Origin: a virus
Virus record (IMG/VR): IMGVR_UViG_3300009103_002207
Coordinates: 1-27,564 of that record
Reading direction: 5' to 3' (one strand)
DNA length: 27,564 nt
Under the pieces are notes generated by a model, which saw nothing but the letters and a program-made list of their open reading frames with translations, was not told where the DNA came from and did no database searches. Made by a program: the position numbers and the translations under genes. Positions 629-23,210 of the stretch are shown piece by piece. Position 1 is the first letter of the stretch. Each line of letters opens with the position of its first letter.

Positions 629-1558
629 TTATTTTAAAAGGTTTAAATATTGTTGGGCTACATTTTTTATATATAAATCAGGCCTATGGAAGCCTTTGGG
701 TGTTTCTAGGATTTTTAAAATTCCGTCAACTATTTTTTCAGTATCAACTATAGGGGGATTGTAGAGATCCACCGTGGTTCCCATTTGATAATCTTCTTCC
801 AATGTGAGGATAATACCATTATCTTTAACTAGTTCCTTAGTGCCCCCGTTATGAGAGCATAACACAGGCAGGCCAGAAGCTAACCCTTCTACAACGGTAT
901 TGGGGCACCAATCCAGCCATGAGAGATGTACCATAGCGTCCGCTGTAGCGTATATTTCAGGTAGTTTATCGTGAGCTATTTTAGGGAAAAGAATTATATT
1001 TTGGGACTGCGTAGATTCAACATAATCCACTGCGGGTTTATAGCACTGGCCATCCAAAACCAGAAGCGCGACGTCCTTAAGCTTGGGAGAGCTAAAGGCC
1101 TCCATCGCTTCTTCTAGGCGTTTATGGCGCCTCCATTTTGCGGAAGCAATTACAACTTTGTCAAAGTTTTCCACATAAGGATGGGGAATATCGGGGGTAA
1201 AGGTAGAGGGAACTCCATTATAAATAATTGTATTATCTTTTTTTATACCCGTAAAAGCTTCATAAATATCCTTGGAGAATTGAGATTGAAATACTATATG
1301 ATCAAACTTTTCGTAACAATCAAATATGGGTTTATTTTTGTTCCTACAAGATTTGTCTCCGCTATCGAGGCACAAACCATCCAGGCGTAACACGTTAAAT
1401 GCATTATCTTTATGGGGACCGTCAATGATCGCGATGTTATTGTCGGCGTTTTTCTTAAAATCGTGTCCCTGCTGAATAAATTCTTCCTTCAGTCTCCACC
1501 CAAAAGTAGATGGCCCACCCATTTTAGGGTTAGCCCTATTAATATAAAAAGATTTCAT
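629..1558 (-). CDS. GT4-type (GT-B fold) glycosyltransferase
   Basis: This is a 309-residue GT-B glycosyltransferase that probably transfers a sugar from a nucleotide donor. The C-terminal donor domain is clear: IIYNGVPSTF near residue 113, ASAKWRRHKRLEEAMEAF around 140, a VLDGQ strand, then the retaining-GT signature DWCPNTVVEGLASGLPVLC with the key Glu at about 224, followed by HNGGTKELV. The N-terminal acceptor domain is short (about 110 residues), so the protein is smaller than bacterial GT4 enzymes of 350-400 residues, as is common in phages. It overlaps the GT2 gene upstream by 4 bases (ATGA), which implies translational coupling. Donor and acceptor cannot be told from sequence. Confidence 0.88.
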   Translation of the reverse strand: MKSFYINRANPKMGGPSTFGWRLKEEFIQQGHDFKKNADNNIAIIDGPHKDNAFNVLRLDGLCLDSGDKSCRNKNKPIFDCYEKFDHIVFQSQFSKDIYEAFTGIKKDNTIIYNGVPSTFTPDIPHPYVENFDKVVIASAKWRRHKRLEEAMEAFSSPKLKDVALLVLDGQCYKPAVDYVESTQSQNIILFPKIAHDKLPEIYATADAMVHLSWLDWCPNTVVEGLASGLPVLCSHNGGTKELVKDNGIILTLEEDYQMGTTVDLYNPPIVDTEKIVDGILKILETPKGFHRPDLYIKNVAQQYLNLLK

Positions 1559-2304
1559 TCAATATACCCCCGATGTCTTATGAGTTTTGCTATTCCTTCT
1601 TCTAGTTTGCCCCCTGTGTGTTCTTCTTTTGGGGTGGCGGACCCTGCGTGATTATAAATATAACATATTCGAGGCAGATAGCAAGCTTTTAGGTTTTTTT
1701 TATGACAATGATATAACATTGGGAGCATGAGAGCTTGATCGTAACCTCTTTTAAACCAGGCCCCCGTGTCATCTTGAAAATTTTTGATATTTATGTTGTC
1801 TAGAAGCCTTTTTTTAAAAGTACGCAAATGACTGGAGACCCACGGATAGGTATAAGGGTTTTCGTTGGGAGGTAAAAATTGACTTACATTCAGGTCTCGA
1901 TCATCCCACTTATGCCCCGTCCATAAAACTTCACAACCTTTTTCGCATAACACGTCTTCTACTACCGTATCTTCATAGGATCTTGAAATATAGTGAAAAC
2001 AATCATTATCGCATAATTGATCGTCCCCATCAATGATTACTATAATAGAATCAGGATTTGCGACATTCTCTTGAATAGTATTATAAATATTTTTAAGGGC
2101 ATATTGACGCTTCGGGTTTAGAATTACATCAATACGGGGATCGGAGAGCTTATTTATAATTTCAGTCGCCTTGTCAAACGAAGAAGGGCATCCATCACAT
2201 GCTATATATAATTTCCACTGTTCGTGGGTTTGTGCACGAACACTTTCAACAAGGGCGCCTAAATTATCAGCTGCCTTAAAGGTAGGAACAATGACTTCGA
2301 ACAT
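1555..2304 (-). CDS. GT2 family glycosyltransferase
   Basis: This 249-residue GT-A fold glycosyltransferase opens with the classic GT2 N-terminus FEVIVPTFKAADNLGALVES, followed by LYIACDGCP (first aspartate of the nucleotide site). The metal-binding motif is IIDGDDQL, with D92 and D94. The sequence after it (YPWVSSHLRTFKKRLLDNI and a later WFKRGYDQALMLPML segment) matches the acceptor half of GT2 enzymes. There is no membrane segment, so it is a soluble cytoplasmic enzyme. It overlaps both neighbours in the minus-strand operon (29 bases upstream, 4 downstream). The donor sugar is unknown. Confidence 0.88.
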   Translation of the reverse strand: MFEVIVPTFKAADNLGALVESVRAQTHEQWKLYIACDGCPSSFDKATEIINKLSDPRIDVILNPKRQYALKNIYNTIQENVANPDSIIVIIDGDDQLCDNDCFHYISRSYEDTVVEDVLCEKGCEVLWTGHKWDDRDLNVSQFLPPNENPYTYPWVSSHLRTFKKRLLDNINIKNFQDDTGAWFKRGYDQALMLPMLYHCHKKNLKACYLPRICYIYNHAGSATPKEEHTGGKLEEGIAKLIRHRGYIE

Positions 2305-3208
2305 TATTATTGAACCAATTGGAAACGAGTCGGGGAACGCTTTCCTTGTTGGGTAATTGAATTACTGATCCTTCCCAGTCGGCAACCTTCTCGTGAAAGG
2401 TACGAGGACCTTTTTCATATAAAATTTTAGCCATTGCACGTATGTTTTTATCGGTCACTTGAGACCAAGGTTTATCAAACATAACATTATGGGCGCTCGT
2501 ATCTTTTCGTTGTAAATTATACATAGAATTGTGAAACTCGTGCCAATGATCCTTGTAGTTGCGTATTTTTCGCTCTAGGTCCAGCCATGAAACATGCCAA
2601 ATAGCTATAGGGCTACTTTGGTTGAATTCATGGAATTGTTGACGTACGTTTCCCGCTATATTAATATAATCACAAGTGTCGGATTCGTAGGGTCGAGGAT
2701 ATTCGTGGCCAGTTTCGTCAAATTCTTTGCTTCGTTCAGGTATTCCATGTTTGACATATGGAATATTGGGAGTGATTCGGGGCTTGGGATACATGTCTGC
2801 CCTTATTTGATCAAGAGAACCCCAAAATTCTAATACGGGAAGTGCTACGTAAATTTGCTGGTCGTAAACCATTTTACAAAGTCTTTTAACTTCTAAACGA
2901 TTATTTTCATGTATGAATTCATCTGTATCGCATTGCCACAGGACATCCCCCGTACACATGGCACGGGCATCGTTTTTAAGATACCCATCAGAATAGATTG
3001 CCCATCGAGGATGGGACATGTCGATGGGGAATGTTTTTACCTTAGCGGTGGGGAAGTGTTTTTTAATTAATTTTAGGGTGTTATCAGAACTACCCCCATC
3101 CGCTATACATACTTCGTCAGCAAAAGAATGTAAATCTTCAATACATTCTAAAAAGGGGTACCCACGCTCCTCACAGTTAAACGTGGTAGTATAAGCACTA
3201 ATCTTCAT
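2276..3208 (-). CDS. GT2-like (GT-A fold) glycosyltransferase
   Basis: The protein has 310 residues when started at ATG 3208-3206, giving MKISAYTTTFNCEERG. An in-frame TTG at 3220 would add four residues but is less likely, because GT2 proteins usually begin right at the first beta strand. The motifs are a TTTFNCEE nucleotide-binding start, EVCIADGGSSDNTL (typical GT2 second strand) and a DxD-type WQCDTDEFI with D94 and D96. A later LPVLEFWGSLDQIR region and the HVSWLDLERKIRNYKDHWHEF segment resemble GT2 enzymes acting on surface glycans. It overlaps the gene upstream by 11 bases and the one downstream by 29. Specificity is unknown. Confidence 0.85.
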   Translation of the reverse strand: MKISAYTTTFNCEERGYPFLECIEDLHSFADEVCIADGGSSDNTLKLIKKHFPTAKVKTFPIDMSHPRWAIYSDGYLKNDARAMCTGDVLWQCDTDEFIHENNRLEVKRLCKMVYDQQIYVALPVLEFWGSLDQIRADMYPKPRITPNIPYVKHGIPERSKEFDETGHEYPRPYESDTCDYINIAGNVRQQFHEFNQSSPIAIWHVSWLDLERKIRNYKDHWHEFHNSMYNLQRKDTSAHNVMFDKPWSQVTDKNIRAMAKILYEKGPRTFHEKVADWEGSVIQLPNKESVPRLVSNWFNNNVRSHCSYL

Positions 3209-3941
3209 AAGGTCTGTCAAATTCCATATATTTATTAGTGAGATGAGTTTTGGTGGGACGAGCCTCTCCTCCCGATTGGACTATCTTGAATTTAATTCCC
3301 GACATATCTATTGTCGTTCCAACATTTGTTCCCCATCCAGGAGTGCTTTTTCCCATAAAATACTTGTTCTTCCATCCTCTTTCTTGTATATATATGGTGT
3401 TCCATTCTTCTAGAACAGGATATCCATCGGGAGCCATAAAGGTACGTCCTTTATAGTCTCGTAGAACAGGGGCTCCTGTTTCGTTTACATGTCCAACTTT
3501 TTGAGGGAACTCAAATGATTTCCAAATAGAGGGAGTTAAGAATATCCAATCAGTGGCTGTGTATCCTGGCCCCCAATCATGAGTGTAGATATCTGAATCA
3601 AATTCCTCTATATCTATTACATCCCTAAACCCTTTATCCGCAATAACGTCACAAACGGTAAAAACGACAGGGCCCTCATAGTTGATTTTTTTTAAATGCT
3701 CGATTCCTCGCATCAAGCCTTCGCAACAGCCAGGGAGGTGACCTGGGTTAGGAAAGGACTCTGAGTGATCAATGAGATCGGGTTTCTTATACTCGATGCC
3801 ATTTTCTACAGTAGAGATATTATTAATGAGATAGGCTTTATCCCCGAACATCCCTCTAAACCAGGACGCCCAAATACGTTCTTCCTCCAGCTTTAGCGGA
3901 GTATTCATTCCTACGGAGATCAGGGCTATTTTTTTATTCAT
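3198..3941 (-). CDS. Unknown protein in glycan operon, possibly GT-A-like
   Basis: I do not recognise this 247-residue protein. It starts IALISVGMNTPLKLEEERIW, and a middle part, GLMRGIEHLKKINYEGPVVFTVCDVI, has the rhythm of the GT-A helix and strand that precede the metal site. The expected DxD is replaced by a lone CDV, so a divergent or inactive transferase is one possibility. The rest is rich in Trp, Gly and Tyr (THDWGPGYTATDWIFL, GWGTNVGTTIDMSG). No signal peptide or membrane segment is visible. It overlaps the GT-B gene upstream by 8 bases and the GT2 gene downstream, so it belongs to the same operon and presumably the same glycan pathway. Confidence 0.6.
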   Translation of the reverse strand: MNKKIALISVGMNTPLKLEEERIWASWFRGMFGDKAYLINNISTVENGIEYKKPDLIDHSESFPNPGHLPGCCEGLMRGIEHLKKINYEGPVVFTVCDVIADKGFRDVIDIEEFDSDIYTHDWGPGYTATDWIFLTPSIWKSFEFPQKVGHVNETGAPVLRDYKGRTFMAPDGYPVLEEWNTIYIQERGWKNKYFMGKSTPGWGTNVGTTIDMSGIKFKIVQSGGEARPTKTHLTNKYMEFDRPYED

Positions 3942-7355: not shown

Positions 7356-8444
7356 ATGAAAAAAATAGTATACAAAGGTCCTTTAAACAGCGTTTCTTTC
7401 GGAAATGTTTCCTATAACCTCCTAAGGGAGATGTATGAACGGAAAATGTCCGTTTCCTTTTTTCCTATAGGGAATGTAGATATTTCGGCTTTTGATAAAG
7501 TTGATTCGGATTTCAAGGTATGGTTAGAGGCCTGTGGTAATAATAGGTATACTTCTGTTTCTAAAGATACTCCTACCTTACAACTATGGCATCTAAATGG
7601 TTCTGAAAATCGCTTGACTCCGCGACAGGCTTTATTTACTTTTTATGAACTTGACAATCCTACGGTGGCAGAAAAAAACTTAGCCGACTTGCAGGATTTG
7701 GTAATTTTTAGCAGCAGTTTTGCTGCAGAGAAGTTTGAGCTTATAGGTTGTGAGAATGTATGCCATATTCCCATTGGTTTTGATAAGGATTTTGGGCCTA
7801 CAGGAAAAGAATATCTAAAAGATACAACGCATTTTGGGCTTTTTGGGAAATTCGAGAAGAGAAAACATACGTCCAAGATCCTCTCTCTATGGGCAAAAAA
7901 ATACGGAAATAATTTCGATTATCAATTAACATGCTGTGTGACGAATCCCTTTTTCAAGCCTGAGCAAATGAATCAAATGATAGGCCAAGCTCTAGAGGGG
8001 AAAAGATATGGTAATATTAATTTCTTGCCCTATTTGAGAACTAATAGTGAAGTGAATGACGCCCTCAACTCTATTGATATTGATCTTACGGGACTTAGCG
8101 GTGGCGAGGGCTGGAACCTTCCTTCTTTTAATGCTACGGCGTTGGGAAAATGGAGTATTGTTCTCGATGCTTCATCTCATAAAGATTGGGCAACACCAAA
8201 GAACTCAGTACTGGTTGGGACCAAGGGGAAGGAAAATTCCGCTGATGGATTATTCTTTACGCAGGGACAACAGTTCAATCAAGGTAATATTTATACCTTT
8301 GACGATGATGAGGTAATTGCTCAGATGGAACATGCAGAAACCCTAGCAAAGAAAGAGAACACAGAGGGCCTGAAGTTACAAAAAGAGTTCACCTATAAGA
8401 AAACTCTGGATTCTATTTTGGACAAAATGTCTTCTCTAGTGTAA
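7356..8444 (+). CDS. GT-B (GT4-like) glycosyltransferase
   Basis: This 362-residue protein has a GT-B fold. The N-terminal domain starts KIVYKGPLNSVSFGNVSYNLLRE, where a Gly/Ser loop faces the acceptor. ALFTFYELDNPT and FSSSFAAEKFELIGCENVCHIPIGFD mark the domain junction. The donor domain has FGLFGKFEKRKHTSKILSLW (about 160-179, with basic residues 168-170 suited to nucleotide phosphates) and LSGGEGWNLPSFNATALGKW (248-266), the retaining-GT signature with E251. It stands apart from the main glycan blocks, between SSB and small phage proteins. Donor unknown. Confidence 0.82.
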   Translation: MKKIVYKGPLNSVSFGNVSYNLLREMYERKMSVSFFPIGNVDISAFDKVDSDFKVWLEACGNNRYTSVSKDTPTLQLWHLNGSENRLTPRQALFTFYELDNPTVAEKNLADLQDLVIFSSSFAAEKFELIGCENVCHIPIGFDKDFGPTGKEYLKDTTHFGLFGKFEKRKHTSKILSLWAKKYGNNFDYQLTCCVTNPFFKPEQMNQMIGQALEGKRYGNINFLPYLRTNSEVNDALNSIDIDLTGLSGGEGWNLPSFNATALGKWSIVLDASSHKDWATPKNSVLVGTKGKENSADGLFFTQGQQFNQGNIYTFDDDEVIAQMEHAETLAKKENTEGLKLQKEFTYKKTLDSILDKMSSLV

Positions 8445-8488
8445 ATTAATAGAATTATAAATTTTAAATTACAAAATAATAACATATA

Positions 8489-8680
8489 ATGAATACTCAA
8501 AATAACGAAATCGTACTATGCTGTGGGCGCGGCAAGTGCCCTATTCTTCGCAAAACCACCGCAAATTTGTATGAAATTCAAGATGATGATGGCAATATAG
8601 TTTCAATTAAAAAAGATCAACTAGAGTTAATCGCTGAGGCTATAAAAGAGTTGGATGATAAATGTTCTATGAAACGATAG
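8489..8680 (+). CDS. Small Cys-containing phage protein
   Basis: This 63-residue protein has a CCGRGKCP motif (Cys 11, 12, 17) that might bind a metal, followed by an acidic beta segment (LYEIQDDDGNIVSIKK) and a helix (LELIAEAIKELDDK). Similar small proteins occur in marine T4-like phages, with no known function. The 44 bases upstream are very AT-rich with no clear Shine-Dalgarno. Its end overlaps the membrane protein gene by 19 bases. Confidence 0.65.
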   Translation: MNTQNNEIVLCCGRGKCPILRKTTANLYEIQDDDGNIVSIKKDQLELIAEAIKELDDKCSMKR

Positions 8681-9015
8681 CATGTATTGGGCTGACCTTT
8701 ATCCTTAAGTATGGGACAATTTTTGATAAGCCACGCGGCTTTTTAATCAGACAATCTCTCTTCTTAAAGGATCTTTTCGATTGCAGCTTGTGTCTGGGGT
8801 TCTGGACAGGGGCAGCAGTAGGTGGGGCGCTTTTTTTTATTGCATGGGATCCCTTTTATTACCTACTTCCTTTAGTCTCTTCTTTTTTATCATTAGTAGC
8901 CGATTCCATCATGGGTACCCTTCAAGCTTATGAAGCACATTTAGAGTCTCGTTCCCGCCGTCCTATAGGTAAAAAGCGGAAGCGCCCCGAGTCGCCTCCT
9001 TCCAACAATGACTAA
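8662..9015 (+). CDS. Small membrane protein with CxxCxGFW motif (DUF1360-like)
   Basis: This 117-residue protein has two or three membrane helices: TIACIGLTFILKYGTIF near the start, then FWTGAAVGGALFFIAW and FYYLLPLVSSFLSLVADSIMG. Between the first two lies FDCSLCLGFWTG, like the FDCPFCLGFW motif of DUF1360 membrane proteins, with the Cys pair at the membrane edge. The C-terminal tail (about residues 90-117) is strongly basic (RSRRPIGKKRKRPE) and probably cytoplasmic. Such proteins are known from phages and bacteria without a settled function. Confidence 0.7.
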   Translation: MFYETIACIGLTFILKYGTIFDKPRGFLIRQSLFLKDLFDCSLCLGFWTGAAVGGALFFIAWDPFYYLLPLVSSFLSLVADSIMGTLQAYEAHLESRSRRPIGKKRKRPESPPSNND

Positions 9016-9024
9016 CCTCCTCCA

Positions 9025-9372
9025 ATGCCACTTTATATCTTTGAGCACCCTACCACCGAAGAGCGGCGAGACATCTTCTTCCATATGGCGGAAGAACCTA
9101 AAATTTATATTGATTCCGAAGGTATAGAATGGCGGCGGATTTTTACTTGCTCTCAACTTTCTATGGATACTTCTCTTGACCCTTATAGCAGCAAACAGTT
9201 TGTAGATAAAACGAGAAATGAAGGGAACATGGGAGATCTATGGGATAGAAGCGCAGAACTTCATCAAAAACGGGCAGATAAAGAAGGGGTAGACCCCTTA
9301 CGTAAAAAATACTTTGAACAATACTCAAAAGAGAGGAACGGGGCCAAGCACCTTGAGGACCCAAGTGCCTAG
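9025..9372 (+). CDS. FmdB-like phage protein that has lost its zinc cysteines
   Basis: The 115-residue protein starts MPLYIFEHPTTEERRDIFF, resembling the FmdB zinc-ribbon opening MPxYE, but has only one Cys (CSQL), so a zinc ribbon cannot form. YIDSEGIEWRRIFTCSQ follows, then SLDPYSSKQFVDKTR and DLWDRSAELHQKRADKEGVDPLRKKYFEQYSKER, an arrangement I recognise from conserved proteins of T4-like marine phages. The role is unknown. Its position just after the DUF1360-like gene and the compact spacing indicate co-transcription. Confidence 0.7.
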   Translation: MPLYIFEHPTTEERRDIFFHMAEEPKIYIDSEGIEWRRIFTCSQLSMDTSLDPYSSKQFVDKTRNEGNMGDLWDRSAELHQKRADKEGVDPLRKKYFEQYSKERNGAKHLEDPSA

Positions 9373-9377
9373 TACCG

Positions 9378-9473
9378 ATGACTCTTATAATTAAAAAAGG
9401 GGCACGCTTCATAGTAAGGAAATTAGCCGCAGTGTTCACGAGAAAGGCACCCCCTCCCGCTCCCCCTACTTAA
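9378..9473 (+). CDS. Very small basic protein, possible gene
   Basis: A 31-codon reading frame fits exactly between two genes, starting 6 bases after one stop and ending 7 bases before the next ATG. The product is a short basic amphipathic stretch (IIKKGARFIVRKLAAVFTRK) followed by a Pro-rich tail (APPPAPPT). It could be a membrane-active or scaffold peptide. No Shine-Dalgarno is evident, so this is only a candidate. Confidence 0.4.
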   Translation: MTLIIKKGARFIVRKLAAVFTRKAPPPAPPT

Positions 9474-9479
9474 TGATTA

Positions 9480-10130
9480 ATGAAGGAATGGTATAGAAAT
9501 ATTTTAGGGCGACTCAATGAGTGGCTTGACAAAGAAATAGCCTATTTGGATTCCTCTAAATATTATACCGAGCAAGACCCTTTAACGAGGGAGGGGATAA
9601 AAGACCTTAGCGCCTCTCGCAAAAAGGAATTAAACAGGATGTCAACTGCTAATTTTAATTTTTATTTAAGGAAACAAATTCCCCCTGAGGACTTTAGTGA
9701 TGAGATTACTGCAGAAATAGAGCTTCTATCTGAAGGCCTGGATTCTCATACTTGTGCGGTAATAATAGAGTCATCTCGGGTAAGAAACTTAGGTGCGATT
9801 GTTGCGGCTATGACACACCGCCAATTAAAAGAACCTAAGACCCGTTTTTTTATTATAACCGATAGTGATGAAATTATTCTTAAATTGGTAAATGTCTTTA
9901 ATTGGGCCAATCGACATTTCTACACCCTACCAACTCTTATGGATTTAAATTTAAACCCTTATGAGAGAAATAGTGTTACGTCTGAAATTTTGTCTAAATT
10001 GGATAATTTTATTGTTGCTGAAAATTCTACTCTACTCAAGCTGGTGAACGCCAAGGGGCAAAAACCCCTTCCTCTTCTTGACGCTGAAGAAGTTTTTGTT
10101 TTCCGACCCGAGGAGATGAAGTTTGTATGA
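9480..10130 (+). CDS. Unknown protein at the start of the plus-strand glycan block
   Basis: I do not recognise this 216-residue protein. The N-terminal third is helical and charged (RLNEWLDKEIAYLDSS). The middle has HTCAVIIESSRVRNLGAIVAAMTHRQ and RFFIITDSDEIILKLVNVFNW, which look like a Rossmann-type beta-alpha-beta unit, perhaps a nucleotide-sugar or glycosyl-related fold. It ends VFVFRPEEMKFV. It overlaps the next glycosyltransferase by 4 bases (ATGA), suggesting that the two products are made together. The function is open. Confidence 0.6.
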   Translation: MKEWYRNILGRLNEWLDKEIAYLDSSKYYTEQDPLTREGIKDLSASRKKELNRMSTANFNFYLRKQIPPEDFSDEITAEIELLSEGLDSHTCAVIIESSRVRNLGAIVAAMTHRQLKEPKTRFFIITDSDEIILKLVNVFNWANRHFYTLPTLMDLNLNPYERNSVTSEILSKLDNFIVAENSTLLKLVNAKGQKPLPLLDAEEVFVFRPEEMKFV

Positions 10131-11071
10131 AAAAAATCTCTTATATTTTAGTATCTCGTAATGATAATTATTGTGGTGATTCAGTTGGACGATTAGTAAA
10201 CACGTTAAACCACACAGGGTCCCTTTTGGTTAAAAATGGAGTAGAAGACCAGTCCGAAGTAGTTTTGATTGATTGGGCGTCACCAGAAGCCCCTTTGTTG
10301 GCAAATTTACCCCCTAAACTCAATAAGGATATTCTTTCTATATTAAAAATCGTAACAGTTAGCCCTACCGTTGCAGCTAAATATCAACAAAATTCTCCTT
10401 TTTCTGAAGTTCATGCTATGAATTGTGGTTTTCGCCGCATGAGGGGAGAATATTTTGGGCGCATTGATCAAGATACCTTAATGGGTCAGCGTTTCGTGGA
10501 TTGGTTTTATAACGATTTTAAGGTAAAGGACTATGGTTTTGATTGGCCTACAACAGCTTTTTGTAGTCGCCGTAATTTAGATGAAGTTCAAAGTAAACCA
10601 CATCATTATAAAAATTTAATATTTAATCCTGTACTATCTCGAACTATTACAATCTGCCATGAACATAATCACTTTACCCGCCTCATGCCAAGGGGAAAGG
10701 ACAGGCCTGTTTTCCATTCTCCTTATGGCGGGGCTGTAGGGATTTTGTTAGTCCAAAAAGATGCTTATGAAAAACATAAAGGCTTTAACGAACAAATGGT
10801 TCATATGAATAATATGGATGTAGAATTTTTTAATCGCCTTACTCAAACTGAATCTTTTTATAATTTAAATTTAAAACTCGATTGTGATTTTTACCATCAA
10901 TATCATTCTCGGCATGATGGGGCCAAAAATGACTCCACGCAGCCCCATGCCAACCAAGAAGGCTCACGCCAAACTAATGATTTGAGCTATAGAAACACTT
11001 TACATAAAAATCCAAATAATGCCAACTGGGGACTTTTAAAGGAAGACCTTTCTGTTGTTGACTGGGCCTAA
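10127..11071 (+). CDS. GT-A glycosyltransferase (GT2/GT7 C-domain-like)
   Basis: This 314-residue protein has a GT-A N-terminus (SYILVSRNDNYCGDS), a strand ending EVVLIDWASPE, and EVHAMNCGFRRMRGEYFGRIDQDTLM, with the DxD-type metal site at D114 and D116. Further on, PYGGAVGILLVQKDAYEKHKGFNEQM and NNMDVEFFNRL match the C-terminal galactosyltransferase segment in which Asp/Glu residues act as base (GT7-like). An upstream GAGGAG lies 11 bases before ATG 10127. The C-terminus has an odd Asn/His/Gln-rich stretch. It likely adds a galactose-type sugar, but the donor is not proven. Confidence 0.8.
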   Translation: MKKISYILVSRNDNYCGDSVGRLVNTLNHTGSLLVKNGVEDQSEVVLIDWASPEAPLLANLPPKLNKDILSILKIVTVSPTVAAKYQQNSPFSEVHAMNCGFRRMRGEYFGRIDQDTLMGQRFVDWFYNDFKVKDYGFDWPTTAFCSRRNLDEVQSKPHHYKNLIFNPVLSRTITICHEHNHFTRLMPRGKDRPVFHSPYGGAVGILLVQKDAYEKHKGFNEQMVHMNNMDVEFFNRLTQTESFYNLNLKLDCDFYHQYHSRHDGAKNDSTQPHANQEGSRQTNDLSYRNTLHKNPNNANWGLLKEDLSVVDWA

Positions 11072-11098
11072 AAAAAGAGTTTCCGAACTGGGAGAAAA

Positions 11099-11716
11099 AT
11101 GAATAAAGAAATTAAAAACATACAAATGTTTTCGACAGGGGGTGCTGGAAGTCATTGGTTCTTTCATGAGTTAAAGGGGCCGAAGTATGCCAGCCCCCAC
11201 TTAAACTCCTTAGTGTATGAGATTGAAGGGCATCCTGAAGGGTCGTCATACAAACATCGCAACCAACCTCCTCAAAAACTTCACAAACCTAATAGCTTAG
11301 TCCTCTATCTTTACTGTAACCCCTTAAACCATGCTTTAGGAATGTATAAGAAAAAGCAGGCGCGAGGGCATTGCGAACAAATGGGGGGGGATGTAGCGGG
11401 CATACAGGGAGTTAAGACCTTTGAGGAGTTTGTTGAGAATGGAGTGGATTATTTCAAGTATTATACTCATTTATCTAATTGGTTGAATACTGAAACGGAA
11501 TACCCTCGCGTTTTAATAAAATACGAACATATAAAGGAGGAATTTGATAATTTCTGTCGGTTGATTGAAATTGGTTCTGGACCTCCCCTTAATTTTAGAC
11601 AAAGAAAATCGGATTATAATAAATATTCAGACAGCATAAAAGATAAATTGCATAAAATGTTTAAAAGAGAATTAGAGCTGTATAATTCCATACCCCCGCT
11701 AACGGTAGTAAAATGA
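11099..11716 (+). CDS. Divergent sulfotransferase-like protein
   Basis: The 205-residue protein starts IQMFSTGGAGSHWFFHEL, in the position and shape of the PAPS 5'-phosphosulfate loop of sulfotransferases, though the usual lysine is absent. NSLVLYLYCNPLNHALGMYKK (residues 66-85) resembles the 3'-phosphate strand and helix (xxRxPxxxxxS), with N74 in place of the usual Arg. RVLIKYEHIKEEFDNFCRLI resembles the late YEdL helix. The catalytic details differ, so it may be an atypical or inactive relative. The neighbouring gene 12697-13443 is a clear sulfotransferase. GGGAG before ATG 11099 is a fair ribosome site. An eight-G run at 11383-11390 sits inside the gene. Confidence 0.6.
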   Translation: MNKEIKNIQMFSTGGAGSHWFFHELKGPKYASPHLNSLVYEIEGHPEGSSYKHRNQPPQKLHKPNSLVLYLYCNPLNHALGMYKKKQARGHCEQMGGDVAGIQGVKTFEEFVENGVDYFKYYTHLSNWLNTETEYPRVLIKYEHIKEEFDNFCRLIEIGSGPPLNFRQRKSDYNKYSDSIKDKLHKMFKRELELYNSIPPLTVVK

Positions 11717-11750
11717 AAATACACGTACCCCTCGAATTTCGGGTATAATT

Positions 11751-12707
11751 ATGAATAAAAATGTCATATATTTATTGGATTGTCAATTTGAAGACGAATG
11801 GCATAAAAAGAAATACGCCATCACCAATATTTTAAAAAAGAAAGATGACTTGACAGAGGAATACGTTTCTAGCGTTATAAACTCAGGCTGGAGACAAGAT
11901 GGCCAAGATGAATGGACTTCTATATCTATTCCTCGTATTGAAAGCTATGCACGAACAGTGGGTGCGGACGTAGTTAAGTTTGATAGCAAACTTCTTGACT
12001 CCATGCCGATGCCGTCTAGCTTCCATCCTTATCAAAGGGCGGTTTTCTTAAAGTTTGAAATTCTTAGGCAGTTTGAAAAAAGCAATTACGACAGAATGCT
12101 TTTTCTAGACCTAGATATTCTTATTTTACATGATAAGGAAAATATTTTTGAGGAATTGCCGTCTAAAGGTATTTACATGGCCCCTGATCACAACCCCGAG
12201 ACAACCCTATCCTGCAAACAAAAGTTACTGGAGTTTTTTAATTTAAAAAAAGACTTAATTCCGCTTATTGATATGCCTCGCAAGGATCGAAACTTTTACA
12301 ACCCTCCTTTAAATTGGTTTAAGAATAGGTCTTTTTATAATTGGGGGGTTTTTCTCGCAGATAAAGACTCTATTAAGAAGCTTAATGTGCATATCCCTAA
12401 GTCTACCCAATGGATATCTTTTTTTGACAAATTCAATTTATCCCACAATCCTCGTGACAGTAGGTTTAATCAAGACATCATGGAACAAGACTGCTTGTTA
12501 TATTTTCTTCATCAATCACCATTATCCATAAAACCTTTGGGGCGAAAATGGAATTTTGAGCATTTCTGCGTTCGCCCTAATGATGATGTCAACTTTGTAC
12601 ATATGTATGATAAAATGTTGATATCTTTTCTTTTTGATAAACCTTGGAAGTTAGAGGCCATATGCGCTATTAGGGACAAATACACGGACCTCTTAAATGA
12701 GAACTAA
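11751..12707 (+). CDS. GT8-like nucleotide-sugar transferase
   Basis: This 318-residue protein resembles GT8-type GT-A enzymes. YDRMLFLDLDILILHD (about 113-128) carries the DxD motif at D120 and D122 on the strand, preceded by the FHPYQRAVFLKFEILRQF helix. Later, NWGVFLADKDSI and RFNQDIMEQDCLLYFLHQ look like the GT8 segment that contacts the acceptor and the NQD pattern. The C-terminus (EHFCVRPNDDVNFVHM) contains a His-Met motif that often coordinates the metal. Sugar specificity cannot be told. It overlaps the sulfotransferase by 11 bases. Confidence 0.78.
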   Translation: MNKNVIYLLDCQFEDEWHKKKYAITNILKKKDDLTEEYVSSVINSGWRQDGQDEWTSISIPRIESYARTVGADVVKFDSKLLDSMPMPSSFHPYQRAVFLKFEILRQFEKSNYDRMLFLDLDILILHDKENIFEELPSKGIYMAPDHNPETTLSCKQKLLEFFNLKKDLIPLIDMPRKDRNFYNPPLNWFKNRSFYNWGVFLADKDSIKKLNVHIPKSTQWISFFDKFNLSHNPRDSRFNQDIMEQDCLLYFLHQSPLSIKPLGRKWNFEHFCVRPNDDVNFVHMYDKMLISFLFDKPWKLEAICAIRDKYTDLLNEN

Positions 12708-13443
12708 ACCTTTAATAATTTTCAGCTGCTATCATAAAAGCGGCACAACCCTTTTAAGACACTTTATAGCTGATTATGCCGAAAAGCATGATCTCACATG
12801 GAGGGAGGGTCACTGCGAAAGGTTTAGCGCTACCGACTTTCAAGAGATGGATATCTGGTTTGACCCGTGGGGAACCGCTTTAGTGCCTCACGACTTAAGT
12901 AAAGAGAATAGAAACGTAGAAGAGGCCACTGGTCGAAATTGTATTGGCGTTCACTTAATTAGGGATCCGAGAAATATTATTGTTTCGGGATACCTTTATC
13001 ATAAGTCTCAAGAAAAAGAAGCCGCATGGAAGGGGTACTATAAAGAGACCCTTAATTCTCTCGATCAAGACAACGGTCTTTTATTTGAGATGTCTCGGAC
13101 GGCTCGGGAAACCATAACTCGCATGCAGAAATGGGATTATAGCAATGACATTTTTCTAGAGCTTCGTTATGAAAATTTAATGCAAAATTTTACAGGCACT
13201 TTTCAGAGGATTCTTCGTCACATAGGGTCTCCTACCCCTGCTGAAGACCTTGTTCTTGCTGAGCGTCATGACATAAATCGGATGTCTAAAGAAGAACTAG
13301 AACAAAACACTCATATTATTTCTAAAAAATTTGACCCTTATAAATGGACTTCTTTTTTAAAAGGAGTTCATTTGGCTAAATTAAATTCTTTATTTGGAGA
13401 TTTAGGGCGTTTGAATTATTCCGCGTTGGGGGACGCCTGTTGA
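12697..13443 (+). CDS. PAPS-dependent sulfotransferase
   Basis: This 248-residue enzyme is a sulfotransferase, moving sulfate from PAPS to an acceptor hydroxyl. The 5'-phosphosulfate loop is CYHKSGTTLLRHF, with K14, S15, G16 and T17. The 3'-phosphate site is GVHLIRDPRNIIVSGYLYHK, with R89, D90, P91 and S97. LRYENLMQNFTGTFQRILRHIG follows as the family's late helix. These are the standard markers of the Sulfotransfer superfamily. No signal or membrane segment is visible, so it is cytoplasmic. It lies between a GT8-like and a GT90-like gene, so the likely acceptor is the glycan those enzymes build. Sulfated surface glycans are common in marine bacteria. Confidence 0.9.
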   Translation: MRTKPLIIFSCYHKSGTTLLRHFIADYAEKHDLTWREGHCERFSATDFQEMDIWFDPWGTALVPHDLSKENRNVEEATGRNCIGVHLIRDPRNIIVSGYLYHKSQEKEAAWKGYYKETLNSLDQDNGLLFEMSRTARETITRMQKWDYSNDIFLELRYENLMQNFTGTFQRILRHIGSPTPAEDLVLAERHDINRMSKEELEQNTHIISKKFDPYKWTSFLKGVHLAKLNSLFGDLGRLNYSALGDAC

Positions 13444-13467
13444 TAACATCTGGTATATTTATTAGTT

Positions 13468-14622
13468 ATGCTCTCCAATTATAAAAAAACTCGGGCGGCC
13501 TTTGAAAAAATGTGGAATCGCCCTGCTCCCGATAAAATGATAGGGGACCCGCGCCCTTTTGATATGGATAGTGAAAACGAAGTCTTTTTTCAGTCTTATC
13601 AGAGGCTGGTTATAAAAAAAGAGAAGGGGAACTTAATAGCAAATGCCTGGACCAGTGACCATTCCGCTTCTCACAGGCCTCTTCACGCCCTTAATTTAAT
13701 TTATTTAGCTGGCATCTCGAACTGGGGCCTCAAACTTCCTGATTTTAAGCCTATAAGGATTTATACAGGAGATATATCTCCTACTTATAAATGTCTCAGG
13801 GAGTGTAACGAATACCCTTTAATTCCTGGGGCCATGGATTTAAATAAAATCTCTCCTGATTTTTTAGGAGGGCAAAGGCTAGCAAATTATACGCGGCAAT
13901 CCAAAAAGTGGCCGCGTGTTGATATGGGTTTTGACGAGCCTAATCTATTTTTGAATAAAGATTTTGGTATATGTCCTGATTTTACTTTTTGGGCTTATTC
14001 AGGAGCTTACATGCCTAGCGCTGACGGGGTTTCTGGGTGGGCTAATTTTCACAGAGATCTTTTAAACAAAAAACCTTCTCCCAATCCTTCTCCGCGTATA
14101 GGATGGAGGGGAAGCTGTCAGTCTTTAAGCGCTATTAAGGAGCAGACGGCCCAGAACCCTAACTTTGAGCTGTGGAATGGTGCTCCTCGGCTCGGTTTAC
14201 GAGAATTAAGCCGCGAACACCCTGATATTATTGATGCAAAATGTCCCAATCAAGAGGGGAGCCAGCATCGGTTAACTCCTATAGAACTGAGAGATAATTA
14301 TAAATATCTTCTAGAGGCAGGCGGCGGCGGCTGTAGTTGTCGTGTAAAATGGCTGTTATGTCTGAAGCGCTTGTGTTTTATAAGGGAAAAGGCCTGGTCG
14401 GCTTTTTATGAAATAAATCTTAAGCCTTATGTTCATTATATTCCTATTAAAGAAGACTTTTCGGATTTAATTGAAAAATATCACTGGGCGGAAGATAATC
14501 CAGAGAAATGCGAGGAGATCATAGATAATTGTTCCACTTTTGTAGAACGTTTTTTATCTCCTAAATCTCTTGCGCAACGGTGGCATGATACAATTCATTA
14601 TATTGTAGAAAATTACCAATAA
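13468..14622 (+). CDS. GT90/CAP10-like glycosyltransferase
   Basis: This 384-residue protein belongs with the CAP10 / GT90 family, in which bacterial LpsA-type members add sugars to lipopolysaccharide. Visible markers are IGWRGSCQS (GWRGS at 212-216), RDNYKYLLEAGG around 275-286, the GCSCRVKWLLCLKRLCFI core, and NLKPYVHYIPIKEDFSDL (317-334), which carries the family's HY.P...DLSDL signature. The protein is soluble, with no leader, so it acts inside the cell. GGGGCSCR is unusually Gly- and Cys-rich where the family has Gly-x-Ser-x-R/K. In context it acts on the same glycan as its neighbours. Confidence 0.82.
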   Translation: MLSNYKKTRAAFEKMWNRPAPDKMIGDPRPFDMDSENEVFFQSYQRLVIKKEKGNLIANAWTSDHSASHRPLHALNLIYLAGISNWGLKLPDFKPIRIYTGDISPTYKCLRECNEYPLIPGAMDLNKISPDFLGGQRLANYTRQSKKWPRVDMGFDEPNLFLNKDFGICPDFTFWAYSGAYMPSADGVSGWANFHRDLLNKKPSPNPSPRIGWRGSCQSLSAIKEQTAQNPNFELWNGAPRLGLRELSREHPDIIDAKCPNQEGSQHRLTPIELRDNYKYLLEAGGGGCSCRVKWLLCLKRLCFIREKAWSAFYEINLKPYVHYIPIKEDFSDLIEKYHWAEDNPEKCEEIIDNCSTFVERFLSPKSLAQRWHDTIHYIVENYQ

Positions 14623-14675
14623 AAAAAATACATTTATTTAAATCGAGGGATAAAAATCATCCACGAGGAGCACCA

Positions 14676-15200
14676 ATGAAACCCAGACATCTTCATATTG
14701 GCTGTGGAGAAGTTATTCTGCCTCCACCTTTTGAAAATTTAGACGAACGAAATTTGTCTGGAGTTGACCATATATCGAACGCAAAAAAACTACCATTTGA
14801 CAACGAAACTTTTGATTTAATTTACTCCTCACATGTCCTAGAGCACTTTCATAGAAGTGAAACAGAAGAGGTCCTTTCAGAATGGGTTAGAGTACTTAAA
14901 ATGGGCGCCATACTCAGGCTTTCGGTTCCATGCCTGGATAACTTAATTAAAATTTATCAAACTTCTAATGACCTAGAGAATATAGTGGGGCCTTTAATGG
15001 GAGGGCAAACCTATGAGGGCAACTTTCACTACAATATATTCAACAAAGAGAGCCTAACCCAATACTTAGAAAAGGTGGGTTGCGAAGCAATTCATACATG
15101 GGATTTCAGGAGAACAAGTCACAGTCAGTTTTTTGATTTTTCTCAAGCTACAACCTGGGAAATACCCATTAGCTTAAATATTGAATGTAGAAAAAAATGA
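14676..15200 (+). CDS. SAM-dependent methyltransferase
   Basis: This 174-residue Class I methyltransferase has motif I LHIGCGE (6-12) and the acidic residues of NLDER (21-25) for the SAM ribose. AKKLPFDNETFDLIYSSHVLEHF (37-58) is the type-11 pattern of motifs II and III, and LRLSVPCLDNLIKIYQ follows. It has a strong Shine-Dalgarno (GAGGAG at 14665-14670, 5 bases before ATG), one of the best in the window, so it is probably translated well. It overlaps the next gene by 4 bases (ATGA). In a glycan cluster the likeliest acceptors are sugar hydroxyls. Confidence 0.85.
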   Translation: MKPRHLHIGCGEVILPPPFENLDERNLSGVDHISNAKKLPFDNETFDLIYSSHVLEHFHRSETEEVLSEWVRVLKMGAILRLSVPCLDNLIKIYQTSNDLENIVGPLMGGQTYEGNFHYNIFNKESLTQYLEKVGCEAIHTWDFRRTSHSQFFDFSQATTWEIPISLNIECRKK

Positions 15201-16111
15201 AGAAGGGTTATGTTATCTGTCGCAGGGGTTCAGGGCTATCCGATCTTCTGAAAAATATAACGGCAGCTTGGTATTTAGCACACTCTACTAATAGAGATGT
15301 AATTATTGACTGGTACCAGACGGTTTACACTAATTACGAAAGAAGGTTTTGCCTACATGAAAAGTTAGACATATATAATTACTTAAATTGTCCATTTAGT
15401 GAATTTTTTAACAGGTTGCCTGTAATCCAAGGAGTTTCATTCTATGTGCCGTCGGACTTTAGCTGTTCGGAATATAAGCAATTATTAAAAGACTCTGAAC
15501 TGTGCAACGCTTGTATAAATGAAACACTTACTGAAAAAGGGTCGCGGGTTTCAGACCAGAATCAGCTCTTTTTTTTAGAGAAGATTTGTTCTAAATTAAG
15601 TTTTAATTCTACAACTCAACAAAAAATAGATAACTTTAAAAAAAAGCATTTGGACAACAATATTGTGGTTGCGTGCGTATTTCGTTACGGGGATGGCCAG
15701 CTACGCAAGGCTTATATAAATTCATATAAAACGCTTTACCCCAACTCTCCTGTAAGCGAGGATAGAATAATAAAAAAAATGTTTGACCAATATTTGTTTT
15801 TTTTAAATGAAATAAAACTTGTTCATCCTGACCTTCGGGTTATGCTGATCGTAGATGAGAGAGGGGTATATGATGAACTCAAATCCTTCTTGTCGGAATT
15901 CACCTGTATTCCTCAAAATTTAAGGTGGACCAAAGAGGGTCACGTTACACATATTAGTCAGGGCTTTGAGAGTTTTAAATCTAAGCTTTTACCTGCAGTA
16001 TTAGATATGTTTTTAATGAAAGAATGTCAATATATGATATATACTGAATCTGGTTTCAATCTAATTCCACGACTTTTCATGCCGTGGCCTAATACAATTA
16101 AAGTTTCTTAA
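15197..16111 (+). CDS. NodZ/GT23-like fucosyltransferase-type protein
   Basis: The 304-residue protein opens MKKGYVICRRGSGLSDLLKNITA, with Arg and Gly residues in a phosphate-binding loop as in NodZ and alpha-1,6-fucosyltransferases, then RDVIIDWYQTVYTNYERRF. Further segments IVVACVFRYGDGQLRKAY and QYMIYTESGFNLIPRLF parallel the family's HxRxGD/G and SSSFxxLAA motifs that bind GDP-fucose. It directly precedes GDP-mannose 3,5-epimerase, whose product GDP-L-galactose is GDP-L-fucose with an extra 6-OH. I infer that its donor may be GDP-L-galactose. The family match is moderate. Confidence 0.6.
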   Translation: MKKGYVICRRGSGLSDLLKNITAAWYLAHSTNRDVIIDWYQTVYTNYERRFCLHEKLDIYNYLNCPFSEFFNRLPVIQGVSFYVPSDFSCSEYKQLLKDSELCNACINETLTEKGSRVSDQNQLFFLEKICSKLSFNSTTQQKIDNFKKKHLDNNIVVACVFRYGDGQLRKAYINSYKTLYPNSPVSEDRIIKKMFDQYLFFLNEIKLVHPDLRVMLIVDERGVYDELKSFLSEFTCIPQNLRWTKEGHVTHISQGFESFKSKLLPAVLDMFLMKECQYMIYTESGFNLIPRLFMPWPNTIKVS

Positions 16112-16153
16112 ACACCTGTGGAATTCATGGGATTTTATTTTATTATATAAAAC

Positions 16154-17119
16154 ATGAAGATACTTATAGCAGGCGCAGGAGGCTTCATAGGAGGCCATTT
16201 AACTAAAAAGCTGAGCGAAGAAGGCCATGAGGTGATGGCGGTTGATATTAAGCCTACTCGCCAATGGCATCAACATACGAACAAAGCTCATGAGGTTAGT
16301 CGGGATTTGCGTTCTTATAATAACTGGGGCTATCTACTATCTGACGTTGACAGGGTATATAATTTAGCCTGTAATATGGGGGGCATGGGTTTTATTCAAA
16401 ACAATCACGTCGAATGCCTGGAAAGCGTTTTAATTCAAACCAATCTCATTAGAGCTATAAGCGACATGGGGGAGTTTGGGCCCAAAGAAGTTTTTTATAG
16501 CTCTTCTGCTTGCGCGTACCCCGAGGACATTCAAGGCGCCGTCGATTCTGTTGCTTTAAAAGAGTCTGATGCCTTTCCCGCGAGCCCTCAAGATGGGTAT
16601 GGATGGGAAAAGCTTTTTAGCGAAATCATTACCAAGTATTCCATTAAGGATTGTGGAATTAGCCCTCGTGTTTTCAGGTTTCATAATTGCTATGGCCCTT
16701 ACGGGACGTGGAGAGGGGGACGAGAAAAAGCTCCTGCCGCATTGTGCCGCAAAGTTATAGAAGCAAAGCTTTCAGGCAAACATGAAATCGAAATTTGGGG
16801 AGACGGAGAGCAAACACGCACGTTCATGTATATTGATGACTGTATAACTGGAATAGAAAAGCTTTGGGGATCTGATTACACGGATCCTCTTAATTTGGGA
16901 AGCGATGAACAAGTGACCATTAATCAGCTAGTTGATATTGCGGAAGAGCTGGGTGACATTAAACTTAAGAGAAACCATGACCTAACAAAACCCCAGGGAG
17001 TAAGGGGACGCAATAGCGATAACACCTTAATTAAAGAAGTTCTAGACTGGGCTCCCTCAATTTCACTTAAAGATGGCATGGAAAAGACCTATAAGTGGAT
17101 TTACGATCAGATGACATAA
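16154..17119 (+). CDS. gme: GDP-mannose 3,5-epimerase
   Basis: This 321-residue extended SDR enzyme converts GDP-D-mannose to GDP-L-galactose. The evidence is unusually strong. The NAD loop is AGAGGFIGG (6-14), and YNLACNMGGMGFIQNN (69-84) is a GME signature. C120 (in YSSSACAYP) matches the plant GME catalytic Cys, Y149 and K153 (DGYGWEKLFSE) are the YxxxK pair, and K192 (GGREKAPAALCRK) is the epimerisation acid/base Lys. The late segments EIWGDGEQTRTFMYIDD and GVRGRNSDNTLI are also typical. Length matches bacterial GME enzymes (about 320-330). It lies immediately after the fucosyltransferase-like gene. Confidence 0.93.
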   Translation: MKILIAGAGGFIGGHLTKKLSEEGHEVMAVDIKPTRQWHQHTNKAHEVSRDLRSYNNWGYLLSDVDRVYNLACNMGGMGFIQNNHVECLESVLIQTNLIRAISDMGEFGPKEVFYSSSACAYPEDIQGAVDSVALKESDAFPASPQDGYGWEKLFSEIITKYSIKDCGISPRVFRFHNCYGPYGTWRGGREKAPAALCRKVIEAKLSGKHEIEIWGDGEQTRTFMYIDDCITGIEKLWGSDYTDPLNLGSDEQVTINQLVDIAEELGDIKLKRNHDLTKPQGVRGRNSDNTLIKEVLDWAPSISLKDGMEKTYKWIYDQMT

Positions 17120-21302: not shown

Positions 21303-22525
21303 TGTTTCTGGCTATCCTGATCCTTGTATCAGCTCTGAGTATTTCGGCTACCGCCATTTACTTTAGTATTGTTGGGCTGACCACTATTTTTCCTGGAGCC
21401 TTCTGGCCCATTGTAATAATGGGAACCGTTCTGGAGGTAGGGAAGTTGGTGTGTGCCAGTTGGCTTCATCACCACTGGAAAACTGCCCCCCGATTACTAA
21501 AAATATACCTGACTGCAGCTGTTGCTATTCTCATATTTATTACAAGCATGGGTATTTTTGGTTTCTTAAGCAAATCCCACATTGAACAGCAGAGGGAACT
21601 CACACAAACCACTGCTACCATCGAGCAGTTAGAATCCCAAATAGCCAACGAACAAAACTTTGTAGAGCGCCAACAAAACCTCATCTCCAAAACAGAAAAA
21701 CGAGAAGGAGCAACAGTTCAACGCACAGATTTTAATATTGAACTTGAGCAAAAAAAAATCAAAGAGCTTCAAGGCGCCCTTGGCACCTCCATTGCATATG
21801 ATGAAGACGAACTTAAGCGTCTGGATGTGAGATTAACTCAGCTGGATGATGAGATCGCGGCTCTCGAAGCTACGAGCGGAGGGCTTTTTAGCAACAAAAA
21901 GAAAAAACTAGAGGAGCTATCTCTTACCCAGCAAGCGGAACGAGATCTTATACAAACTAAAAAAGACGAAGCAGAAGGCCGAATTAAAGAAGCCAGAGTT
22001 AATACTGAAAAACAAATACGAACCATACGACAACGCATTGACGCATTCCAGGATACTTCCACTACGGAAATTACCGAAGACCCTAATCTCCAAGAATATG
22101 AGGAGAACATTAGGGCAGCCTATCTTAGAATAGAAAACCTTCAAGCCAAGAAATTTTCCGCAGAATCAGAGATAGCGAACCTTGAGGTGGAAGTCGGACC
22201 TATTAAATACATTGCCGCATTAGTGGAAGATATGGGAATCGACAATGTGGTTTTAGCTGAAGCAGTTCGGTTCGTTATTTTGATTTTGGTATTTGTTTTT
22301 GATCCTCTTGCAGTAGGAATGCTTTTAGCGGCTAATTTAAGCCTTAGAAAAGCTCGTCAACTTCCCTATGAGAAACTTTCTGACCAAATAACTTCACCTT
22401 CCTCTAAGGTAACAGGCCCTATTTCACCTCCTCCCCCTTCTCCTCCTCCTCCTCTTTCACCTTCATCAGAAACCTCCAATGACACTAAAAAGAAATCTTC
22501 TCCTGGTATTTATCACGATCTTTAG
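21302..22525 (+). CDS. Membrane protein with long coiled coil
   Basis: The 407-residue protein has membrane helices near residues 3-28, 35-52 and 68-90, a long charged coiled-coil region (about 92-300, with many Glu/Lys/Gln heptads and a conserved GGLFSNKKKKLEEL), and a final hydrophobic segment near 318-348. A Pro-rich stretch (SPPPPSPPPPLSP) comes near residues 377-389. Its opening, SIVGLTTIFPGAFWPIVIMG, is recognisable from T4-like marine phages. Function unknown. Its last 47 bases overlap the lipoprotein gene in another frame. It could help hold or break the envelope during lysis or assembly. Confidence 0.7.
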   Translation: MFLAILILVSALSISATAIYFSIVGLTTIFPGAFWPIVIMGTVLEVGKLVCASWLHHHWKTAPRLLKIYLTAAVAILIFITSMGIFGFLSKSHIEQQRELTQTTATIEQLESQIANEQNFVERQQNLISKTEKREGATVQRTDFNIELEQKKIKELQGALGTSIAYDEDELKRLDVRLTQLDDEIAALEATSGGLFSNKKKKLEELSLTQQAERDLIQTKKDEAEGRIKEARVNTEKQIRTIRQRIDAFQDTSTTEITEDPNLQEYEENIRAAYLRIENLQAKKFSAESEIANLEVEVGPIKYIAALVEDMGIDNVVLAEAVRFVILILVFVFDPLAVGMLLAANLSLRKARQLPYEKLSDQITSPSSKVTGPISPPPPSPPPPLSPSSETSNDTKKKSSPGIYHDL

Positions 22526-22793
22526 TCTTCAGGGTTGTACTCCTTATCACAGAAGGCCTCCTGCGGACTACAACAAAACCATTTCCCACGAAGACATTAA
22601 TCCCATCCCTCTTTTTAATTCCGAAAACAATTCCACTACTACCGACAATCAATCCGATAGCCATGTTTCTCCCTTCCTCTGGCTGGTAACGATTGTATTA
22701 ATGGCATGCTTTATTCCCTTATGTTGGTATTTTACTCGTGATTATCGGGTGAAATTCTTGACTTTTCTCAAGAAGAAGTGTAATATGAAGTAG
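22479..22793 (+). CDS. Lipoprotein with second membrane segment (spanin-like candidate)
   Basis: This 104-residue protein has a bacterial lipoprotein leader (basic KR, then LLLVFITIFSLQGC), with the lipobox at L17 to C20. Mature residues 21-64 are polar and Pro-rich (TPYHRRPPADY). A hydrophobic segment at about 66-85 (FLWLVTIVLMACFIPLCWYF) is followed by a basic tail. A lipid anchor plus a C-terminal membrane helix is the layout of a unimolecular spanin, which joins the two membranes in phage lysis, but the region between is only about 45 residues. The gene overlaps the coiled-coil gene by 47 bases in another frame, as Rz/Rz1 pairs do. Lysis function is an inference. Confidence 0.55.
   Translation: MTLKRNLLLVFITIFSLQGCTPYHRRPPADYNKTISHEDINPIPLFNSENNSTTTDNQSDSHVSPFLWLVTIVLMACFIPLCWYFTRDYRVKFLTFLKKKCNMK
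22758..22786 (+). promoter_or_regulatory. Putative sigma70-type promoter upstream of tmRNA
   Basis: TTGACT (22758-22763), a 17-base spacer and TAATAT (22781-22786) lie inside the end of the lipoprotein gene. A second -10-like TATAAT (22799-22804) ends 5 bases before the tmRNA 5' end at G22810, which would put the start site at or next to the mature end, but it has no good -35. Either could drive the tmRNA. Confidence 0.45.
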
Positions 22794-22809
22794 TTCTTTA
22801 TAATTTAAT

Positions 22810-23210
22810 GGGGGTGTACTGGATTCGACTGATGTTGGATTCTTACACTGCAGGCCGAAGATGCACTGGGCTTCGTAAAAAGGTGCAACACCCATACATG
22901 GCAATAAAAACCGTGTTAGGGCCCTCGGCTTCAAGAACCGACTCGCTACAAAGCGTTTCGGGTTGAAGAGCCGTAGGCTCGCCCTGGCAGCCTAGACAGC
23001 TGTCACCTCTGTCCTCTTGACGCAGATAGGGTGAGGCAGGGGTAATCTATCTGCAAAACAGATAAAAGTTTACTTGTACCATAAACTGCAAATAATTGAA
23101 ACAAGAAGTTGGATGTTAATATCGTAACTCTAAAAAAAATTAACTAAGCCTGTAGGTGTGTATGCTTGAAGATACTCAGGACGCGGGTTCAACTCCCGCC
23201 ACCTCCACCA
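22810..23210 (+). ncRNA. ssrA: tmRNA (transfer-messenger RNA), one-piece
   Basis: This 401-base tmRNA rescues ribosomes stalled on broken mRNA and tags the product for proteolysis. The acceptor stem pairs 22810-22816 (GGGGGTG) with 23200-23206 (CACCTCC). The third pair is G-U, the alanyl-tRNA synthetase signal, and CCA is encoded at 23208-23210. The conserved GGATTCGAC lies at 22821-22829, and the T arm GCGGG/TTCAACT/CCCGC at 23183-23199. PK1 is clear (CGAAG/CTTCG; TGCACT with GGTGCA). The likely resume codon is GGC 22900, preceded by ATA at -6 to -4 as in E. coli. The tag is then 31 codons from GNKN to RRLALAA, stopping at TAG 22993. A six-T run follows CCA. Gene identity is very sure, the tag less so. 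Confidence 0.95.

Follow-up and report, generated by a model that had tools for sequence, protein, structure and literature searches.

A phage-borne tmRNA with a 31-residue basic tag and a hairpin inside its tag reading frame

The commonest tag length in the current tmRNA database, which comprises 97,179 sequences, is 10 (PMC11915505). mRNA-like regions of 48-126 nt before helix 5 are known, as is a Gly resume codon (PMC1168896 for both); with such long mRNA-like regions on record, tag length alone is not unprecedented. In our samples of Pseudomonadota and Fibrobacterota, ARAGORN called tags of 8-14 residues. In the Fibrobacter sample, one bacterial genome contains three tmRNA matches arranged in tandem over less than 1.5 kb (G117:C23:43557-44980). 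Phages also carry tmRNAs, and a two-piece permuted tmRNA together with a glutamine riboswitch has been described in the OM43 phage Melnitz (PMC9004378). Rickettsia palindromic elements (RPEs) in the Rickettsia tmRNA are likewise on record (PMC2229807). In the open-access literature searched, we found no description of surplus tag codons being packed into a hairpin. Here we describe a phage tmRNA in which this appears to be the case, and compare it with its relatives.

A one-piece tmRNA with a long, basic tag

The window, i.e., the whole stretch of DNA analysed (27,564 nt), is a 27.6-kb uncultured virus record (IMG/VR IMGVR_UViG_3300009103_002207) and probably a fragment. It codes for the small subunit of ribonucleotide reductase, dCMP deaminase, SSB, and a UvsX-like recombinase. 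In the list of ORFs, many of those at 629-3941 (- strand) and 7356-17119 (+ strand) resemble glycosyltransferases, sulfotransferases, and a sugar epimerase by sequence alone. The window has no close cultured relatives, as NrdB is less than 60% identical to its cultured counterparts and the same holds for UvsX. Searched against cultured relatives, the tag peptide gave no match, and the tmRNA DNA gave short matches at the 3' end only.

The tmRNA (ssrA) is flanked by a small ORF (22479-22793) on one side and by the UvsX region on the other. ARAGORN called a single tmRNA, of the one-piece type, at 22810-23210 on the + strand, and the covariance model RF00023 matched over its whole length (model positions 1-374) with 139.4 bits and an E-value of 7e-55, against a gathering score of 47. 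CCA is encoded, and the acceptor stem contains G3-U70. The pseudoknot PK1 (22856-22887, +), the homologue of PK1 in the RF00023 alignment, was read from the sequence; its stems are CGAAG (22856-22860) with CTTCG (22871-22875), and 22862-22867 with 22882-22887. Helix 5 (22986-23004, +), which is present in the Rfam alignment and in the RNA fold, carries the stop codon of the tag in its loop. The Rfam alignment treats the surplus between the resume codon and helix 5 as a 60-nt insertion. The ARAGORN call and the full-length match bear out the initial annotation, which had recognized a tmRNA here; it is complete and genuine and belongs to a known type, but the architecture of its tag is new.

Relatives were gathered by scanning IMG/VR, using the proteins UvsX and NrdB as well as tag DNA patterns as queries, and through an Rfam search of 50 of the records. 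This resulted in 42 distinct tmRNAs of an uncultured phage clade, including the one from the window. Long tags (31-33 aa, 10-12 K/R, no D/E) are found in 11 of these, including the window, and have a core resembling GFKNR(L/I/V)AAKRFGFK(S/G)RKLALAA. Short tags of 20-21 aa, typically GNK(N/S/A/D)R(V/I)KAF...LALAA, are found in 25, and the remaining six have acidic tags that start with Ala. The tmRNA L152 has a 34-residue acidic tag, AEGYYSIEELLEAAREEYDNLVQFEQAEELEMVA, for which the start given by ARAGORN is too late; this tag was apparently lengthened independently.

The tag reading frame of the window (22900-22995, +) comprises 31 codons and the stop codon TAG. ARAGORN and the initial annotation arrived at the identical tag, GNKNRVRALGFKNRLATKRFGLKSRRLALAA, with 31 residues, ten K/R, and no D/E. 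The resume codon GGC at 22900 lies 12 nt past PK1 and has ATA at -6 to -4; the stop codon in the helix 5 loop (22993-22995) is conserved in the relatives. The tag of the window and those of most relatives end in LALAA, and thus have the C-terminal LAA-COOH of ssrA-type ClpXP substrates. The frame starting at the 22900 column is open in all 42 distinct tmRNAs and ends with AA or VA at helix 5. Among the nine tags of 31 aa, 21 of the 34 variable columns are third positions of this frame. The open frame and the third-position bias exclude the rival frame beginning with GCA at 22901, which would give a tag ending in SVSG. The bias among the long tags also indicates conservation, at the peptide level, of the tag's basic N-terminal half.

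For some of the relatives, ARAGORN reported the wrong tags ANNYMATKTVLKLLA and AATSVLLTQIG, where the homologous frame reads GNKNRVKAFGLKAKKLALAA and GNKARVKVFGFKRRKAALAA. Wrong tags affect L114, L118, L124, L010, L121, and others, and tag lists generated automatically for these phages may therefore be unreliable. We also considered a cellular origin of the tag and rejected it: the DNA pattern of the tag start matches three bacterial contigs, none of which has a tmRNA at the match.

The hairpin and the selection acting on it

The hairpin within the tag reading frame (22919-22980, +) was delimited by RNA folds and recoding tests. It includes the 48-nt in-frame palindrome (22926-22973) that had been noticed in the initial annotation. 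The palindrome is real: when the whole RNA is folded (z score of -4.5), it is present in the MFE structure as well as in the centroid structure, and the tag ORF alone also folds with a z score of -4.5 when compared to synonymous recoding. All 42 tag ORFs form a hairpin, located after about six mostly unpaired codons and directly before helix 5. This is the case even where the peptides are unrelated, as illustrated by ACTCGC-CAAAAA-GCGAGT in L032 and CTTCG-TTAG-CGAAG in L137.

We compared the tag ORFs to random synonymous recodings of the same peptide. The p-value was below 0.05 in 20 of the 42 tag ORFs, and the z score was negative in 38. When each distinct tag was represented by a single sequence, the expected number of pairs in the closing helix was 4.37 versus 1.10 under recoding and exceeded the recoded value for 34 of the 35 tags (Wilcoxon 1.7e-10), values that should be read in light of the scored positions having been picked after the folds were seen and of the relatives not being independent. 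Pairing of the first 18 nt of the tag ORF was below expectation in 33 of the 35 distinct tags. The short forms covary, with a score of 0.239 versus 0.165 in shuffles (0 of 500). For the long forms, 93% of the cells pair, with only three pairs changing on both sides, which by itself is a weak covariation signal. Because synonymous recoding destroys the hairpin, these comparisons indicate that the tag-ORF hairpin is kept by selection across the relatives, whatever the encoded peptide.

Judged from its position and spacing, the hairpin most likely serves the geometry of the linker between the resume codon and helix 5. Alternatively, the hairpin might affect translation or the stability of the RNA, by slowing the ribosome on the tag or by protecting the exposed tag ORF from nucleases. 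We consider this improbable: selection on the hairpin independent of the peptide is compatible with such a role, and the enlarged hairpin is more stable (about -22 to -32 kcal/mol) than the short ones (-7.5 to -14.5 kcal/mol), but the recurrence of the same spacing (about six free codons, stem, helix 5) in short tags, long tags, and the tags of Patescibacteria favors geometry.

We assign a similarly low probability to the possibility that the basic tag is primary and the hairpin secondary, with the tag conferring a second fate or property (binding to nucleic acids or membranes, escape from adaptors such as SspB, or better engagement by a particular protease). The uniform charge and the conserved core of all 11 long tags, and the mostly synonymous differences between them, are what would be expected in this case. 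The acidic relatives bear on the question in two ways. They also have the hairpin, so its presence does not make basic residues obligatory; however, acidic tags suffice for these members of the clade, and basic charge is thus unnecessary for the common role. A search of Pfam with the tag peptide returned no family match. The resemblance to the ribosomal protein bL34 is weak (p of 0.018 and 0.07 in shuffles, nothing in Pfam), and we do not claim mimicry of bL34.

Long and short forms of the tag

The long and short forms have a common start, frame, and end, and the difference between them amounts to 11 codons within the hairpin. In the window, comparison with the short-tag relatives places this 33-nt segment, coding for NRLATKRFGLK, at 22936-22968 (+), with borders that are ambiguous within two direct repeats. 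These repeats, GGCTTCAAGAACCG (22927-22940, +) and GGGTTGAAGAGCCG (22960-22973, +), were recovered as a self-match at offset 33. In most long forms, 33 nt is one of the offsets at which the tag ORF matches itself best, with two copies of GGYTTCAAGARCCG. The two copies spaced by 33 nt suggest in-frame duplication or deletion between direct repeats as the simplest origin of the long/short difference. As a correction to the initial annotation, the indel between long and short tags comprises 33 nt (11 codons) and not the whole 48-nt palindrome. Close homologues lacking the palindrome, with a short tag in another frame, would have spoken against the proposal made there. Homologues without the enlarged palindrome do exist and have short tags; however, they keep the frame, which confirms it and reveals the indel to be in frame.

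In the phylogeny calculated from the tmRNA minus the tag, the long forms do not form one clade (six changes; AU-test p 0.0026). The sister of the window in this phylogeny is the short-tag tmRNA L010, which is 90% identical (support 97/81). In the UvsX phylogeny, the window pairs with the long-tag L002, and the long-tag L005 is found elsewhere; in the NrdB phylogeny, the window pairs with the record containing L010. The long form as a single clade is thus rejected on the tmRNA backbone, and the UvsX and NrdB trees do not unite the long forms either. Because the inserted core is similar in all long forms, the likeliest scenarios would be a single origin followed by losses, or the exchange of the tag segment between phages.

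Downstream of PK2, after AAACTGTA, the tmRNAs L114, L124, L156, L158, L176, L181, L161, L169, and L153 carry a distinct insert of about 34 nt (CCACTGAGTATTCGGGGGCCTCAAGTTTGAGTG-like). Its presence varies among close relatives, as it is found in L114 and not in L119, although the tags of the two are identical. L144 and L117 have shorter inserts at the same site.

That the palindrome is a neutral mobile element of the Rickettsia type, inserted in frame, is highly improbable: it is palindromic, has a length that is a multiple of three, and is present or absent between close relatives, and RPEs are known from Rickettsia genes, that of the tmRNA among them, but there is no second copy elsewhere in the window, all ten stretches that matched a degenerate pattern of the element among 2.9 million viral contigs lie inside tmRNAs of the clade and not as dispersed homologous copies in unrelated genes, a hairpin exists at this position in the short-tag relatives as well, and the indel consists of 33 nt between direct repeats. 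The likeness to palindromic elements that enlarge tmRNAs, drawn in the initial annotation, is therefore not upheld. Since all relatives have the hairpin even with unrelated peptides, and recoding destroys it, we regard the palindrome as a tag-ORF hairpin that has been enlarged and is under selection, and not as a mobile element.

Expression, proposed mechanism, and comparison with known systems

The gene is preceded by a sigma-70-like promoter, TTGACT - 17 nt - TAATAT (22758-22786, +; 9 of 12 matches), and similar hexamers are present before many relatives. Downstream follows a boxA-like element, GTTCTTTATAA (22793-22803, +), which has one mismatch to the boxA consensus GYTCTTTAANA (PMC5725501). 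In many relatives, the promoter-like hexamers are followed by GTTCTTTRAMA at -17 or -18 from the mature 5' end. Of the 43 stretches examined upstream of the tmRNAs of the clade, 17 contain a perfect match to the consensus, and 32 a match with at most one mismatch (the 43 include L116, a truncated copy of the record with L002); the corresponding frequencies in random windows of the same phages are 0.03% and 0.54%. The element is absent from L137, L138, and L150 (outgroup) and rare upstream of the bacterial tmRNAs sampled. We infer that the tmRNA is expressed from its own promoter with rRNA-like antitermination, transcription being predicted to begin near 22793. The boxA-like element before the gene suggests that the phages treat the tmRNA like rRNA, as a stable RNA in need of antitermination.

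We consider it quite probable that the locus encodes a working phage-borne tmRNA, in which surplus tag codons are placed in a selected hairpin that keeps the linker short, and in which the 11-codon enlargement, generated or removed through repeat duplication or deletion, has been exchanged. Its role is likely ordinary trans-translation with the host SmpB and a ClpXP-type LALAA degron. The tmRNA would be charged with alanine, given the G3-U70 and the CCA in the sequence, and would bind SmpB. The 29 related phage records, some of about 200 kb, contain no smpB, so that of the host would serve. Ribosomes stalled on truncated mRNA would be rescued in infection, and the LALAA end suggests that the tagged products would be degraded by ClpXP-type proteases of the host; a ClpP family match was found in only one of the 29 records. 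Approximately six codons (about 18 nt) past the resume point would be left single-stranded, as needed for loading of the ribosome, and the surplus codons would be placed in a hairpin with its closing stem immediately ahead of helix 5, so that the linker would remain compact at any tag length. Because the hairpin keeps the linker short, the length of the tag could change by whole codons within it. The 11 extra codons in the window would have been made or lost through in-frame duplication or deletion, and exchanged between phages.

With a confidence a little short of even, we put forward a more general rule: tags longer than about 15-20 codons pack the surplus in a hairpin about 16-19 nt past the resume codon, and the phages of this clade use the hairpin as an expandable and exchangeable cassette that diversifies their tags in charge (basic or acidic) and length (19 to 34 residues), with the RNA expressed in infection from an rRNA-like promoter with boxA. 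The rule is simple and can be tested for long tags in phages and Patescibacteria. The tmRNA of the window indicates how a tag might be lengthened threefold without stretching the RNA. The clade also provides a natural series (20, 21, 31, 33, and 34 residues; basic and acidic) for asking about tag length and charge in ribosome rescue.

The tmRNA of the window shares with the bacterial one-piece tmRNA (RF00023) the match to the full-length model, PK1, a Gly/Ala resume codon, the stop codon in the loop of helix 5, and the LAA-type degron. It differs in its basic tag of 31 residues, compared to the usual 8-14, and in the extra hairpin in the tag ORF. The tmRNAs of Patescibacteria (CPR) are similar in design: long tags, of up to 32 residues, are frequent among them, with the surplus codons located in a hairpin that starts about 16 nt past the resume codon. 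The same hairpin design was present in 12 of 13 tags of at least 20 residues; examples with 20-32-residue tags and a tag-ORF hairpin are L188, L245, L248, L258, L259, L262, L264, L265, L268, and L273. However, these tmRNAs are cellular, encode unrelated peptides with FAPAVA-like ends, and are mostly without boxA. The tmRNAs of Pelagibacter phage Mosig, OM43 phage Melnitz, and mycobacteriophages are carried by phages, as is the one described here. Mosig has a glutamine riboswitch and a nine-residue tag, GEDNFALAA, compared to the 31 residues in the window, and the tmRNA of Melnitz is two-piece and permuted, whereas that of the window is one-piece, with a 31-residue tag and a boxA-like element. 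The Rickettsia palindromic element is similar in being a palindrome within a tmRNA gene and in having a length that is a multiple of three; in contrast to it, the palindrome in the window is not dispersed, occurs at one site, and elaborates a hairpin common to all relatives.
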